Below, in pieces: positions 3,324 to 34,627 of a stretch of DNA of 64,000 nt. The stretch spans positions 1 through 64,000 of IMG/VR virus record IMGVR_UViG_3300028800_000087. The stretch is one strand, 5' to 3'. Below the pieces are notes generated by a model. The model ran no database searches. It had not been told where the DNA came from and saw nothing but the letters and a program-made list of their open reading frames with translations. Numbering within the stretch: position 1 is the first letter of the stretch; each line of letters starts with the position of its first letter. This DNA is from a virus. Both the position numbers and the translations under genes were made by a program.

Positions 3324-3980
3324 CTATCCTTCCAACAAGAGGTTGCCGCCCTCGATAAGCGACAGGGGACCGCCCTGGATCAATTCTAGCGGACCATTGA
3401 TGGGGTTATCCTCCAGCAACAAAGGTCCGCCTTGGACCAGCAACAAGGAACCGCCCTGGATCAACTCGAGTGATCCGCCGCTGATCGGGTTATGTTCCAA
3501 CAGGAGTGCGCCGCCCTGGATCAACAGGAGCGGACCGCCCTGGATCAGCAGGAGCGCGTCTACATCATCAGTCGGCCCATCGACCGGCGCGTTCCACTCA
3601 AAGCCAACGCATTGAACCTGCCAGAAGCCGGCGCCGATGCGACTGTAGGAATTGACCTGCCTGGGAATATAGGTCTTGCCATCCCAGGTGATGATATCCG
3701 GCAGGAAGTTGCGCCCGTTTGTATCAACACCCGCCGTCCTGATCGCGAACCGCGTGATGATCTCGATGCTGTCCATCTGGCTTTCAAAAGCCTCGGTGCG
3801 CGTCAGAGTATTATCGCCCGTTGGATAGACAACGCCCCCAACCGCGCTGAAGGTCTGGAAGATGCTCTCGACCGGCTCGCCAAAGCCATTGATGGTTTGA
3901 AGGCGGCGGATCACATCGAACTGATCTTCCAGCCATGCGTCCTCAATGACCTCGGACAGATCAAGCCAGGGCCGACCCAT
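3324..3980 (-). CDS. Head-tail connector-like protein with C-terminal LxLIQGG repeats
   Basis: The protein has 218 residues from ATG 3980, which overlaps the upstream stop (TGATG). A longer upstream frame is not used. Residues 1-135 look like a phage neck/tail-completion protein: MGRPWLDLSEVIED at the start, then beta-rich sequence with TGVDTNGRN and FWQVQCVGFEWN motifs. Residues 142-218 are a different kind of sequence made of short Leu/Gln/Gly repeats. The location after a DUF4054 and a gp10-like gene supports a neck role. The repeat tail is absent from any connector family I know. Confidence 0.75.
   Translation of the reverse strand: MGRPWLDLSEVIEDAWLEDQFDVIRRLQTINGFGEPVESIFQTFSAVGGVVYPTGDNTLTRTEAFESQMDSIEIITRFAIRTAGVDTNGRNFLPDIITWDGKTYIPRQVNSYSRIGAGFWQVQCVGFEWNAPVDGPTDDVDALLLIQGGPLLLIQGGALLLEHNPISGGSLELIQGGSLLLVQGGPLLLEDNPINGPLELIQGGPLSLIEGGNLLLEG
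3327..3557 (-). repeat. Tandem LxLIQGG-coding repeats
   Basis: The last 77 codons of the connector-like gene encode about nine degenerate 7-8 residue units (LLLIQGGP, LLLIQGGA, LELIQGGS, LLLVQGGP, LELIQGGP, LSLIEGGN, LLLEG). Two units are replaced by longer ones, LLLEHNPISGGS and LLLEDNPINGP, giving a superrepeat of about 28 residues. The alternation of Leu pairs with GG turns suggests a beta-solenoid or beta-roll, which is inference. Confidence 0.85.
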
Positions 3981-29719: not shown

Positions 29720-32281
29720 ATGGGCTTCTTCGTCCCTGATGAAGACCTGGATCGGCTTACCAAGCGCAAACCCATAACACCCAAGCCGGCCAAGGAACGC
29801 CGGCAACTGGACCCAGCATTGCGAGGCTGCAATCATTGCAGCCTTCGCCATGAATGGCGTTTCATCAACAGTCCAGAGATGCGGATCAGCGGCAATGTCC
29901 GCGATCCCGATATCCTGGTGCTGGGGGAGGCGCCGGGGGAGGAGGAGGACTATGCCGACAAGGCATTTGTAGGCCAGTCTGGCAAGCTGATCCGCCGCGT
30001 TATCCCAGGCCGGGAGCTTAGCCGCTGCGCCTTCCAGAACGTTGTAAGGTGCCGTCCCCAGGACAATCAGACCCCATCGCCTGCCGATGCCCATGCGTGT
30101 AGCATCCACCTTGAGGATGATGTCGCGGACTTTGACTTTCGCGCCATCCTTGGCGTTGGATCGGTCCCGCTGGCGCGCTATCTGCCAGGGCAGGCGATCA
30201 CCCGCGTTCATGGTTGCCATTTCCCGGTGCAGATCGGGGACCGCGTTATGTGGTATATGCCGGTCCTGCATCCCAGCTTTGTCCTGCGATCCGGTGGCGA
30301 TGGTGGACCGCATTTCCCGCACCTGATGGCGGATACCAAGCGGCTGTTTGAGGGCCTGGACAGTTGGGGCAAGCCGCAGATCATCCGCCCCAATCCCGAC
30401 GATGTCCTATATCCCAGGTCTTACAACGATGTCCTGGCCATCCTGGCGGCTATGGACCTATCAGCGCCCCTTGGCCTGGATATCGAGACCACCGGCCTTT
30501 ACTTTGCCCATAGGCAAGCGGAAATACTGACAGCAGCGGTCAGCGATGGCACAATCAACATGGCATGGCCCATCATGCACCCAGAGGGCCGCACCGATTG
30601 GGGCCTGCGCGCGCTGTTGCATATAGCCGAGGGCAACGGGTGGGTCGCGCATAACGCGGCATTTGAACTTATCTGGATGATCGACCAAGCCGCGCGCGCC
30701 GGCATCCCATTTAAGCCGGCGCCCTTCCACGACAGCATGGCATGCGGTCGCATCTACTATCAGCGCGCGACCATCCTCAATCTTGAAGTGATGTCGCATC
30801 TGGCCCTTGGCCACAGCTTCAAGGAAGAAGGCGCCAACCTCAACAAGAACCGCATGGCGGAAGAACCGCTGGATCGGGTCTTGACTTACAACGGGATCGA
30901 CGCACAAGCGCCCAACCTGATATGGCGCAAGCTGCGCCCGCTGGTCGATGATCGGCACTATGAACGTATCATCGAGACAATCGAGAGCTGCGTGGGTATG
31001 CAGCTCCTCGGCCTACCAATCGACCGTGATCTGAACGATGAGTTGGCGGATCATTGGCAAGCCAAGATCGATGCAGCGGTCAAGACCAGTCAAACAATCT
31101 ACGAGGTCAAACAGTTCCAACGCGATCGGCAAGCAGAGTTCAACATCGGCAGCAATAAGGATGTGGGCATTGCGCTATCCGAGTATGGCCGCGTCCGCCT
31201 CGAAAAGATGGCCAGCGGTCAGCTCAAGACTGATGACCAGGAACTAAGGCTCAAGGCGCCGGATCATCCCTTGGTCCCGATCATCGTTGACTATCGCGAG
31301 GCCACCAAGGCCAAGTCCACCTACATCGACAGTCCGCGCAAGCTGGCTGACCTTGCGATCGATGGCAACATTCATCCAATCTACAACGCAATGAAGGTGG
31401 AGACCTGCCGGCTATCAAGCGAGATGCCCAATCAACAGAACTGGCCCAAGCGCAACGCGGAACAGGCGCCGATGCGGGCGCAGGTGATCCCGCCCAAGGG
31501 CATGATCTTCCTTTCGTTCGATTATGGCCAGATCGAGGCGCGCGGCATTGCTATGGCCAGCAAGGACCGCGCATTGTGCGAGTCAATAATTGATGGCGGG
31601 GATATTCATTCCAAATGGCTTAAACGCGCATTGGAAATATATCCGCCCTATTGGGACAACATGATCAAGCGTACCAATGAGACCAAGGATGATAAGATAT
31701 TCAAAGGCGCACGTGACATCATAAAGACTGACTTTGTATTTGCATCGTTCTTTGGATCAACGGCAGAGGCTTGCGCGGACCGATCCGGCCTTCCTTTGCA
31801 TATTGCTCGTGACCTGCTGGCAGAGTTCTGGCGCGAGTATCCCGATGTCCTAAAGTATGTAAAATCCAAACAAGCCGAGTATGAGAAGACCGGCTCGGTG
31901 TCGCTGCTGACTGGCTTTATCCGGCGCGGGATCATGGAAGGCAACGAGTATATCAACACGCCAATCCAGGGTTCAACCACCGGCCATCTGGTGGTTGAGG
32001 CGCAGAACGATTGCGCCAAGCTGTCGCGGGAAACCGGCGACATCTGCCTGCATCCGCGCATGAATATCCATGATGATCTGACCTTCATAGTGCCGGACAA
32101 TGAAGATGCGATCATGGGGTATATAGACCAACTGGCGCCGATACTCCTCAAGGTCCGCTATAACTGGCAGATTGTCCCGCTGATGATTGAGGCGCGCATT
32201 GGCAAGAACTTCCGGGACTACGAAGAGATTACCAAGATAACAGGAGACTACATCGATGCCGGATTTGGACAACGACGATAA
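29720..32281 (+). CDS. Uracil-DNA glycosylase / family A DNA polymerase fusion
   Basis: The protein has 853 residues. Residues 30-215 are a family 4/5-like uracil glycosylase: iron-sulfur Cys37, Cys40, Cys111 and Cys127, catalytic-loop GEAPGEEED (69-77), GQSGKL (85-90) and a distal LHPSFV. A 3'-5' exonuclease follows (GLDIETTGLYF, DxE; VAHNAAFEL). The polymerase domain has motif A SFDYGQIEARG, motif B RDIIKTDFVFASFFG, and motif C as HDD (NIHDDLTF) where HDE is usual. This should be the replicative polymerase. SPO1-like phages are reported to have related architectures, but I have not checked the relation. Confidence 0.85.
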   Translation: MGFFVPDEDLDRLTKRKPITPKPAKERRQLDPALRGCNHCSLRHEWRFINSPEMRISGNVRDPDILVLGEAPGEEEDYADKAFVGQSGKLIRRVIPGRELSRCAFQNVVRCRPQDNQTPSPADAHACSIHLEDDVADFDFRAILGVGSVPLARYLPGQAITRVHGCHFPVQIGDRVMWYMPVLHPSFVLRSGGDGGPHFPHLMADTKRLFEGLDSWGKPQIIRPNPDDVLYPRSYNDVLAILAAMDLSAPLGLDIETTGLYFAHRQAEILTAAVSDGTINMAWPIMHPEGRTDWGLRALLHIAEGNGWVAHNAAFELIWMIDQAARAGIPFKPAPFHDSMACGRIYYQRATILNLEVMSHLALGHSFKEEGANLNKNRMAEEPLDRVLTYNGIDAQAPNLIWRKLRPLVDDRHYERIIETIESCVGMQLLGLPIDRDLNDELADHWQAKIDAAVKTSQTIYEVKQFQRDRQAEFNIGSNKDVGIALSEYGRVRLEKMASGQLKTDDQELRLKAPDHPLVPIIVDYREATKAKSTYIDSPRKLADLAIDGNIHPIYNAMKVETCRLSSEMPNQQNWPKRNAEQAPMRAQVIPPKGMIFLSFDYGQIEARGIAMASKDRALCESIIDGGDIHSKWLKRALEIYPPYWDNMIKRTNETKDDKIFKGARDIIKTDFVFASFFGSTAEACADRSGLPLHIARDLLAEFWREYPDVLKYVKSKQAEYEKTGSVSLLTGFIRRGIMEGNEYINTPIQGSTTGHLVVEAQNDCAKLSRETGDICLHPRMNIHDDLTFIVPDNEDAIMGYIDQLAPILLKVRYNWQIVPLMIEARIGKNFRDYEEITKITGDYIDAGFGQRR

Positions 32282-32645
32282 GAAGCGCGACGATGGTTAC
32301 CCCTGGGGCCATATCAGCTCGGAAGGCGACTGGGTTGCGCTACCCAAAGGCCCAATGCTGAAGGCCGGGTATGGACCGCCGCCGTTCGATCTGATCATGC
32401 CAGATGGGTCAACCCGGCATGTTGTCCACCAGCCCGGTCATGGTCCCGGCGAGAAGCCGGCATGGGCCGCGCATATGGCAGCGCCCATGCCCAGCGCGGA
32501 AGTCAAGGATGGCAAGCTTTACAAGCTGACCGCGCGCTTGCGCTGGACTACCTATGCCTCCGGTCCATCGACCTTGGAACAAGCCTGGATCGCTGACGAT
32601 GGCTCCATTGATTGGCGCGAAATCCCAGTTGAGCGCCAGCCATGA
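32256..32645 (+). CDS. Hypothetical protein between polymerase and clamp loader
   Basis: The protein has 129 residues from ATG 32256, with AGGAGA upstream and a 26-bp overlap with the polymerase gene. It is polar and acidic at the start (MPDLDNDDKKRDDGYPWGH), then has PPPFDLIMPDGSTRHVV and a C-terminal strand pattern LYKLTARLRWTTYASG. Function unknown. Confidence 0.65.
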   Translation: MPDLDNDDKKRDDGYPWGHISSEGDWVALPKGPMLKAGYGPPPFDLIMPDGSTRHVVHQPGHGPGEKPAWAAHMAAPMPSAEVKDGKLYKLTARLRWTTYASGPSTLEQAWIADDGSIDWREIPVERQP

Positions 32646-34627
32646 GCGATGGCGCGCTCATCACGAAGTATCGTCCCGCAGAGTGGGATGAGGTTGTTGG
32701 CAATGGGCGCGCGATCGACCATCTGCGCCGCGCCCTTGCCGCCGCAAGCAGCATGCCGCATTCGTTTCTGTTTACCGGGCCATCTGGGACCGGCAAGACA
32801 ACGCTCGCGCGCATCATCGGCAAGGAGCTGAAGGCGGACATCGTTGAGATCGATGCGGCCAGCAATGCAGGCGTTGCCGATGCCCGACAGATCGTTGAGT
32901 TCGGCGAGCATGCATCCCTACATGGCGATGGCAAGCGGCTGATCATCATCGATGAATGTTTTGCTGCCGGCAGTTTAGTGGATACCCCAAAAGGTGCGGT
33001 TCCAATAGAACAGCTACAAAAAGGGGACGCAATCCTTGGCGCTCAAGGCGAAGCAAACATTGGGAAAATTATCAAAACGCGCGTCGAGTTGTCACGCATT
33101 GTCCAGTTGCGCTTGGCAACTGGACAGACTATAGTTTGCTCCGAAGACCATCCTTTTCTTACGCCCCAAGGATGGATAGAGGCAAAAAATGTCCAATCAA
33201 TATCAACACTTCGAGCCCAGCTATCAACACCAGTGCTGCAAATGTGGGATAGCATTTATGAGCAACGGCGGTGGTTCCCGATGCTGTCAAACTTGCTCAC
33301 GCAAGACTTGCCCGGTTTGCGGCGGGGGATATTGGAGTCGGGCAAACACCTGTTCCCGGATATGCGGCAACAAGATCGCGGCCAACAAACGAACTGGCCC
33401 GCGACCCGAGGACTGGAAACAATCAATGCGGGTAGCGCAACAGAAGCGAGCGGCCAGCCCGAGGGGCAAAGAGTTAGCAGCTATGCATTCCGCGCGCATG
33501 ACGCAAAACAATCCAATGCGCTTCCAAGCTGTTATACAAAAGATGATGGAAACCAAAAGCGCCAATGGAACATTGCGGCCCGTCAAACCCTGGCAAGGGG
33601 GCAACGGGCGAGGACCGACCACCCAACAAGCTGCGATCCAAGCGGCGTTCCCGGGCAGCATTATGGAACTTGCTATTCGCACCGCGATGTTGGGTCCTCG
33701 CAAAACAACAGGATATCCCCATGCTTACAAAGCAGACATAGCCTTTCCGGATATCAAGCTTGCGATCGAGATAGACGGGAGCACTCATCGATCAGCGGAA
33801 GGCCGCGTCCTCGATCAAAAGAAGGACCAATGTCTTCAACAATTAGGGTGGAGAGTGTTGCGCATCTCCAACCGGCAGATATCCAGAGACTTCGACAAAG
33901 CGGTCAAACGCATCAAATCGGTGATAAGGAGTATGCGGACTTCTATGATCTTACAATCGACGGGCACCCATCCTTCTCAATCGAAGGATGCATAGTTCAT
34001 AACTGCCATACCCTATCAAAGCCGGCATGGCAGGCGTTGCTCAAGATACTCGAGGAACCGCCCCGCCATCTGTTCTTTGCGCTATGCACAACCGAGCTGG
34101 ACAAGATCATCGAGACGGTCCGACAGCGCTGCTATCACTGCATCCTCAAGCCAGTCAGCCGCGAGGATACCCAAGACCTACTAGACGCAATCATTGCTGC
34201 TGAGCATATGCAGGTCAAGCCCGATGTGATGCAGATGATTGTGCAGGAATGCAACGGGTCACCGCGCAAGGCCATTTCCTTGTTACAGGTCGCGCATGAT
34301 GCGCCCAACAAGGCCGAGGCGCAGCGCATCATCAGCTTACAGGATGCATCCGACCCGCTGAAGGAACTGTTGCAGCTCTTTGTATCAGGCCGCAAGACAT
34401 GGCCATTGGTCCGCGATCTGCTGCTCAAGATCAAGGAGCAGGACAGCTTCGAGGACTCGGTCATGCAGGCCGGCGGGTATATGGCTGCGGTCCTGATCAA
34501 CCAGGAGGACGAGAAGCGGGCGCGCATGGTCTGGCAGTTGTTGGATGCGCTGTTATTCCCGGTGACAACCTTTGACCGCAAGCAGCAGTTCATCGCCGCT
34601 GTTGGTCGCATGATGTGGGGAGGCTAA
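32642..34627 (+). CDS. Clamp loader ATPase (DnaX/gp44-like) interrupted by an intein
   Basis: The open frame has 661 codons. Residues 1-105 are the clamp-loader start: TKYRPAEWDEVVG, Walker A GPSGTGKTTLARI, and Walker B LIIIDE. The intein is residues 106-454. The C-extein resumes exactly at CHTLSKPAWQALLKILEEPP, restoring the DECHTLS box, then LFFALCTTELDKIIETVRQRC and a lid and collar region. The mature protein would have 312 residues, a normal loader size. It loads the clamp at primer ends. ATGA overlap with the gene before. Confidence 0.9.
   Translation: MSDGALITKYRPAEWDEVVGNGRAIDHLRRALAAASSMPHSFLFTGPSGTGKTTLARIIGKELKADIVEIDAASNAGVADARQIVEFGEHASLHGDGKRLIIIDECFAAGSLVDTPKGAVPIEQLQKGDAILGAQGEANIGKIIKTRVELSRIVQLRLATGQTIVCSEDHPFLTPQGWIEAKNVQSISTLRAQLSTPVLQMWDSIYEQRRWFPMLSNLLTQDLPGLRRGILESGKHLFPDMRQQDRGQQTNWPATRGLETINAGSATEASGQPEGQRVSSYAFRAHDAKQSNALPSCYTKDDGNQKRQWNIAARQTLARGQRARTDHPTSCDPSGVPGQHYGTCYSHRDVGSSQNNRISPCLQSRHSLSGYQACDRDRREHSSISGRPRPRSKEGPMSSTIRVESVAHLQPADIQRLRQSGQTHQIGDKEYADFYDLTIDGHPSFSIEGCIVHNCHTLSKPAWQALLKILEEPPRHLFFALCTTELDKIIETVRQRCYHCILKPVSREDTQDLLDAIIAAEHMQVKPDVMQMIVQECNGSPRKAISLLQVAHDAPNKAEAQRIISLQDASDPLKELLQLFVSGRKTWPLVRDLLLKIKEQDSFEDSVMQAGGYMAAVLINQEDEKRARMVWQLLDALLFPVTTFDRKQQFIAAVGRMMWGG
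32957..34003 (+). other. Intein, 349 residues, inserted in Walker B of clamp loader
   Basis: The N-terminal block starts with Cys1 (CFAAGSLVDTPKGAVPIEQL, then QKGD) and continues to block B TIVCSEDHPFLTPQGW, with the TxxH-like His. The C-terminal block reads FYDLTIDGHPSFSIEGCIVHN, split over two blocks, ending HN before Cys+1 at 34004. All splicing residues look intact. The middle 200 codons in this frame are Ser/Arg/Gln-rich with no fold, because that DNA encodes an endonuclease in another frame. This is unlike ordinary inteins, where the endonuclease is fused in frame. Confidence 0.92.
33189..33995 (+). CDS. Out-of-frame homing endonuclease inside the intein (zinc fingers + Vsr/EDxHD-like)
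   Basis: The protein has 268 residues, read in +1 relative to the clamp-loader frame and wholly inside the intein. It begins at ATG 33189, 7 bases after AGAGG. Residues 16-60 hold CCKCG, CCQTC, CPVCG and CSRIC, i.e. one or two zinc fingers. Residues 155-235 are a Vsr/DUF559-like nuclease: E160, D183 in KADIAF, E194-x-D196 in LAIEIDGSTH, H200, then D209/K211/D213 and LGWRVLRISNRQI. This is the pattern of EDxHD homing endonucleases of phages. It ends 8 bases before the splice junction. Confidence 0.85.
   Translation: MSNQYQHFEPSYQHQCCKCGIAFMSNGGGSRCCQTCSRKTCPVCGGGYWSRANTCSRICGNKIAANKRTGPRPEDWKQSMRVAQQKRAASPRGKELAAMHSARMTQNNPMRFQAVIQKMMETKSANGTLRPVKPWQGGNGRGPTTQQAAIQAAFPGSIMELAIRTAMLGPRKTTGYPHAYKADIAFPDIKLAIEIDGSTHRSAEGRVLDQKKDQCLQQLGWRVLRISNRQISRDFDKAVKRIKSVIRSMRTSMILQSTGTHPSQSKDA

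Follow-up and report, generated by a model that had tools for sequence, protein, structure and literature searches.

The clamp-loader gene of the phage studied here appears to contain a splicing intein on whose DNA a homing endonuclease gene is overprinted in the +1 frame, a reading to which we assign a probability of about 0.86. The sequence we analyzed (the window, 64,000 nucleotides) is part of a 69.8-kb IMG/VR phage record, and the features that carry the argument are listed below in window coordinates.

32642–34627, plus strand: DnaX-like clamp-loader open reading frame with intein, 661 codons (AAA, DNA_pol3_delta2; PHROG clamp loader, E 3.9e-54)
32957–34003, plus strand: intein, 349 codons, at the LIIIDE / CHTLS junction at Walker B (Cys1, block B, HN, Cys+1; Hint_2; profile match)
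32957–33271, plus strand: N-terminal Hint half, intein residues 1–105 (AlphaFold pLDDT about 97 to residue 80 and 84–90 to residue 100; served as the N profile in reading relatives)
33178–33182, plus strand: AGAGG, a Shine-Dalgarno-like site for the nuclease, 6 bases 5' of its ATG (read from the sequence; a habit common to the family)
33189–33995, plus strand: nested nuclease open reading frame, 268 codons, +1 relative to dnaX (DUF559; AlphaFold pLDDT 90.8; profile match to I-Bth0305I, 3r3p)
33234–33365, plus strand: four Cys pairs of the nuclease (its residues 16–59), probable zinc ribbons (read from the sequence)
33344–33811, plus strand: intein-frame filler under the nuclease gene, intein residues 130–285, predicted disordered (pLDDT about 42–57)
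33735–33872, plus strand: nuclease core, D183, E194, D196, H200, D209, K212, W221 and N228 (invariant columns in 48 sequences)
33824–34003, plus strand: C-terminal Hint half, intein residues 290–349 (pLDDT 89–97 from residue 291; served as the C profile)
33839–33995, plus strand: dual-coded zone, the Hint C strand RVESV onward in one frame and nuclease LGWRVLRISN plus the last helix in the other (translation; synonymous change)

Once the 349-codon intein is removed, dnaX is an open reading frame of 312 codons, and the host frame is continuous. Pfam places AAA and DNA_pol3_delta2 to the two sides of the insert and within it finds Hint_2 together with Intein_splicing, the latter at a score under its gathering threshold. 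The splicing blocks are those of a class 1 intein: Cys1 after LIIIDE, block B TIVCSEDHPF, a C-terminal VHN and then CHTLS, which supplies Cys+1. The gp41-1 intein (6qaz) matches by profile (E 3.9e-19) and is returned again by Foldseek on the intein model (E 8.2e-7), in which both halves of the Hint fold are ordered. The initial annotation had described a 349-codon intein with complete splicing blocks in a clamp-loader gene, and its coordinates, lengths and frames all check. Upstream of dnaX (29720–32281) lies a DNA polymerase A gene with an N-terminal uracil-DNA glycosylase superfamily domain.

The nested frame is recognized by Pfam as DUF559 (E 1.6e-10). Ahead of its core stand the Cys pairs C16 or C17/C19, C32 or C33/C36, C41/C44 and C55/C59, and the core itself is of the PD-(D/E)XK type, with the invariant D183, E194, D196, H200 and D209 of the DUF559/EDxHD (I-Bth0305I-like) enzymes. 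The catalytic domain of I-Bth0305I (3r3p) matches the nuclease both by profile (E 7.4e-5) and by fold (E 0.023, TM 0.66 on target). The AlphaFold model, made with relatives in the alignment, has a mean pLDDT of 90.8; the top Foldseek matches of this model are mitoribosomal proteins with low TM-scores. Sequence, Pfam and invariant columns agree on what had been read from the DNA at the outset, a 268-residue product in the +1 frame with four Cys pairs, an EDxHD/Vsr-type core and its own AGAGG. An apparent second relative in the same phage (62555–62743, minus strand, E 7.9e-5) is a short frame that overlaps larger open reading frames, and we take it as a chance Cys-rich match.

Relatives were collected in four alignment-based scans of viral contigs and one genome scan, with the best 80 kept per query and profiles built for reading; distinct nucleases were defined by clustering at 95%, and most loci in the family are metagenome contigs. 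At least 220 distinct full-length relatives of the nuclease were found, and among the matches listed 218 of 220 are nested in the +1 frame inside an intein. Both Hint halves were detected in 216 of these 220, with the nuclease +1 relative to their frame; two more have one half detected (L098, L163), and the remaining two are free-standing (L223, L348). The host genes of the nested elements listed encode clamp loaders, SF2 and SNF2-like helicases and terminases, and in 169 of 216 of the listed inserts the position is DE^C of the Walker B motif. A minority (L061, L066, L085 and L052) sit at a neighbouring site of the motif, one or a few codons on, at DEAH^C or past DEIHK. The nearest relative, which was also the first found (contig L003, nuclease 55% identical), carries the insert at the corresponding position of a polA-dnaX neighbourhood, with the nuclease shifted into the same frame. 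Searching phages at the DNA level with the dnaX gene returned no match. Isolated phages also carry the +1 nuclease in helicase genes, namely Vibrio phages CP-T1, 1.088.O, 104E43.1 and 159E43-1b, Pseudomonas phage MR14 and Corynebacterium phage phi673. In all six annotated phage records (L006–L009, L089, L090) only the helicase is listed and the nested nuclease has no annotated CDS. A nuclease fused in the host frame, which the initial annotation had said would point to a sequencing error in the present frame, was found nowhere among the matches listed.

Can the two frames share this DNA without selection on both? As a null model we shuffled synonymous codons within each nuclease, keeping protein and codon use. 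The window nuclease has no stop in the intein frame where shuffled versions have a mean of 8.6, and none of 300 shuffles reached zero. Over the 218 nested elements listed (47,641 nuclease codons), which were selected by the nuclease alone and not by an open intein frame, 2 stops occur in the intein frame, the expectation being 2,125.8, which bears out the proposed selection against stop codons in that frame; the third frame of the same elements holds 3,801 against 3,519.7. The free-standing nucleases lie near expectation (L223, 6 against 8.0; L348, 30 against 28.9), and so do the intein-equivalent frames of 26 free-standing DUF559 genes from Rhizobium, Brevundimonas and others that match the nuclease core alone. 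An invariant Gln of the intein frame stands opposite an invariant Tyr of the nuclease, a pairing that probably reflects the same avoidance, in that before a codon beginning AA the Tyr must be TAC, TAT giving TAA. The nuclease is itself under purifying selection, because in 29 close pairs, with sites treated as independent, its differences at codon positions 1, 2 and 3 are 0.112, 0.098 and 0.263.

The intein frame does not carry the same burden along its whole overlap with the nuclease. In the AlphaFold model of the intein frame only the two Hint halves fold, and the middle, overlapped by the nuclease gene, is disordered. Treating sites as independent, we find that synonymous change in the nuclease is 0.24 in the dual-coded zone and 0.43 upstream, and that change at four-fold sites is 0.29 and 0.52, respectively (73 pairs); free-standing DUF559 genes show no such fall (nine pairs, 0.35 versus 0.37). 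Because of this order in the model and this synonymous drop, we read the overlap as mostly nuclease over open filler, with true dual coding at its end. The intein frame had been called meaningless under the nuclease, a description that fits the filler and fails at the end, where the C-terminal Hint half begins within nuclease-coding DNA and both frames are constrained. The border at which mere stop avoidance gives way to true dual coding can be measured.

How the nuclease would be translated admits two answers. One is that ribosomes make a programmed +1 shift close to where the N-terminal Hint half ends, which would join nuclease to intein as a fused intein endonuclease. The nuclease is always in the +1 frame among the matches listed, and in the window an A-run (GCAAAAAATG) stands at its start, both of which would suit a shift; common descent explains the constant frame equally well. 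The start region speaks for the other answer, a separate nested gene with start signals of its own, as originally proposed. An ATG lies near the start of the zinc finger, and in the nested elements listed Shine-Dalgarno matches of at least 5 nt precede the best start in 66 of 216, against 1.0% of internal ATGs, and matches of at least 4 nt in 103 of 216 (under half), against 9.1%, an enrichment somewhat inflated by the use of the best candidate start per locus. Going upstream in the nuclease frame, the nearest stop lies at a median distance of 18 nt from the first ATG (no more than 60 nt in 86%), which leaves little room for frameshifting; in the window this stop (33177–33179) overlaps the AGAGG site. 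We consider the frameshift unlikely.

Now we consider mobility. Vibrio phages LMAVpH and 1.068.O have a related helicase without the insert, whose sequence at the site is DE^AHH and DE^GHH, against DE^CHH in occupied genes, so that empty and occupied alleles are both found at DE^xHH of Vibrio phage helicases (the empty ones being 57% and 44% identical). Several pairs show far less divergence in the nuclease than in the host gene, a contrast that could be due in part to stronger constraint on overlapping sequence. Third-position differences in one such pair (L344/L358) are 4 of 154 in the nuclease and 113 of 392 in the C-extein; the N-terminal Hint part of the pair is itself diverged (38 of 56), and the transfer may have been partial. 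On the nuclease tree we count 16 changes of host-gene class, where shuffling gives 104.9. Each of the two free-standing nucleases is followed directly by an intein-free gene, a terminase in L223 and a helicase in L348; these genes are of the same classes as the hosts of their nearest nested kin. Taken together, the Walker B sites, empty alleles, divergence contrasts, host-class tree and free-standing copies indicate site-specific homing. The intein-free helicase beside L348 has one extra base (GATGAA CGGA CACCAC, 3900–3925) exactly at DE^xHH, which breaks its frame and is either a misrepaired cut or an assembly error.

Each part of this reading has a rival. The nuclease could be real and serve repair, restriction or phage competition, with the intein as mere lodging: folds of the DUF559/Vsr type also serve repair and restriction, and the specificity of cleavage is a prediction. 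Such a role would leave it puzzling that nuclease lineages follow the host gene, that 169 of the 216 inserts listed share DE^C of one motif, that the free-standing copies adjoin the same genes in intein-free form, and that, among characterised homing enzymes, I-Bth0305I comes closest in both profile and fold; we judge it about as improbable as the frameshift, if anything a shade more so. The insert could also be merely tolerated, its frame open and the host protein keeping it unspliced, as the predicted disorder of its middle would allow. Against this, profile and fold comparisons both match the complete Hint halves to solved inteins, and the splicing residues are kept in nearly all of the elements listed (Cys1 in 211 of 216, HN or SN in 212, Cys or Ser at +1 in 213); moreover, the insert splits the Walker B motif of replication and packaging ATPases, where its retention should be lethal to function. 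We therefore regard this reading as very improbable. A chance open frame, or a sequencing or assembly error, is a general possibility in any metagenomic record, for which we found nothing further; the same build in isolated phages and in 218 distinct elements listed, and the 2 stops where 2,125.8 are expected, rule it out for practical purposes.

Under the overprinted-intein reading, ribosomes reading through dnaX would make a precursor whose Hint halves fold round the unstructured filler loop, splice the clamp loader and free the intein. Other ribosomes would start at the internal ATG behind the Shine-Dalgarno site inside the intein and produce the nuclease, a putative zinc-ribbon and DUF559/EDxHD-type enzyme. 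In a mixed infection this enzyme would cut the intein-free host gene at its Walker B codons; mending of the break with the occupied copy as template would then spread the element. Translation of the nuclease, splicing, cleavage and homing are all inferred here from sequence comparison and models.

Canonical large inteins such as PI-SceI carry a LAGLIDADG or HNH endonuclease as an in-frame intein domain; there, as in the window, a homing endonuclease interrupts Hint at the same place, but in the window it is out of frame. The Bacillus phage group I intron enzyme I-Bth0305I is likewise an EDxHD-type nuclease translated separately inside a splicing element, with the difference that splicing there is of RNA, which frees the intron from any need for an open host frame. 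Split inteins of fractured genes whose EDxHD endonucleases are separate (gp41-1, NrdJ-1) were reportedly described by Dassa et al. in 2009, and we take the gp41-1-like intein and the I-Bth0305I-like nuclease both to belong to that setting. The likeness is close: of the solved inteins, gp41-1 is the best match in profile and fold, and a nuclease gene of a related family lies between its Hint halves. In fractured genes, however, the host gene is in two pieces with the nuclease gene between them, whereas in the window there is one open host frame with the nuclease printed over it. The fractured form was absent from the window, and among the 218 nested elements listed only two have an intein-frame stop inside the nuclease. 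One of them (L186, 3069–3090) has a TGA near the nuclease start and, nine bases on, a same-frame ATG behind AGAAGGT, and from its sequence looks like an intein split in two. The other (L043, 3120) has a lone TAG in the filler of an otherwise intact element, with no start codon close downstream.

The published precedent is the ShiLan domain, a phage insertion without stops in the host frame, whose endonuclease is read in another frame and whose disjunct distribution suggests homing (PMC11855218). It shares the stop-free host frame and out-of-frame endonuclease with the window insert, but it has no intein splicing domain, its nuclease is HNH, no ribosome site is detectable and the third frame is used (PMC11855218); the window insert has Hint halves and a nuclease of DUF559/EDxHD type. 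For overlapping reading frames the same paper cites a preprint on actinobacteriophage inteins of non-canonical architecture (bioRxiv 10.1101/2025.01.02.630785), which, as far as that citation conveys its content, may describe the same build. Among the full texts that could be searched, none described an intein whose nuclease is encoded out of frame.

What had been presented as one odd gene belongs to a large phage family of at least 218 nested elements. More speculatively, in a reading that we hold to be less likely than not, overprinting of the homing nuclease in the +1 frame may be the general rule in this family of Walker B inteins. Being entangled in this way may shield the nuclease, in that a frameshift within it would also disable a host gene that is needed. 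Split inteins whose EDxHD nucleases are separate may in turn have arisen from such elements: the host gene would be fractured by a single stop in the filler with a start after it. The origin of split inteins thereby becomes testable. In the isolated-phage records examined, unannotated nuclease genes come to light, and the family is a source of inteins and of probably specific nucleases aimed at Walker B motifs. In hundreds of phage genes, one stretch of DNA would serve two unrelated demands, the splicing of a protein and the cutting of DNA.
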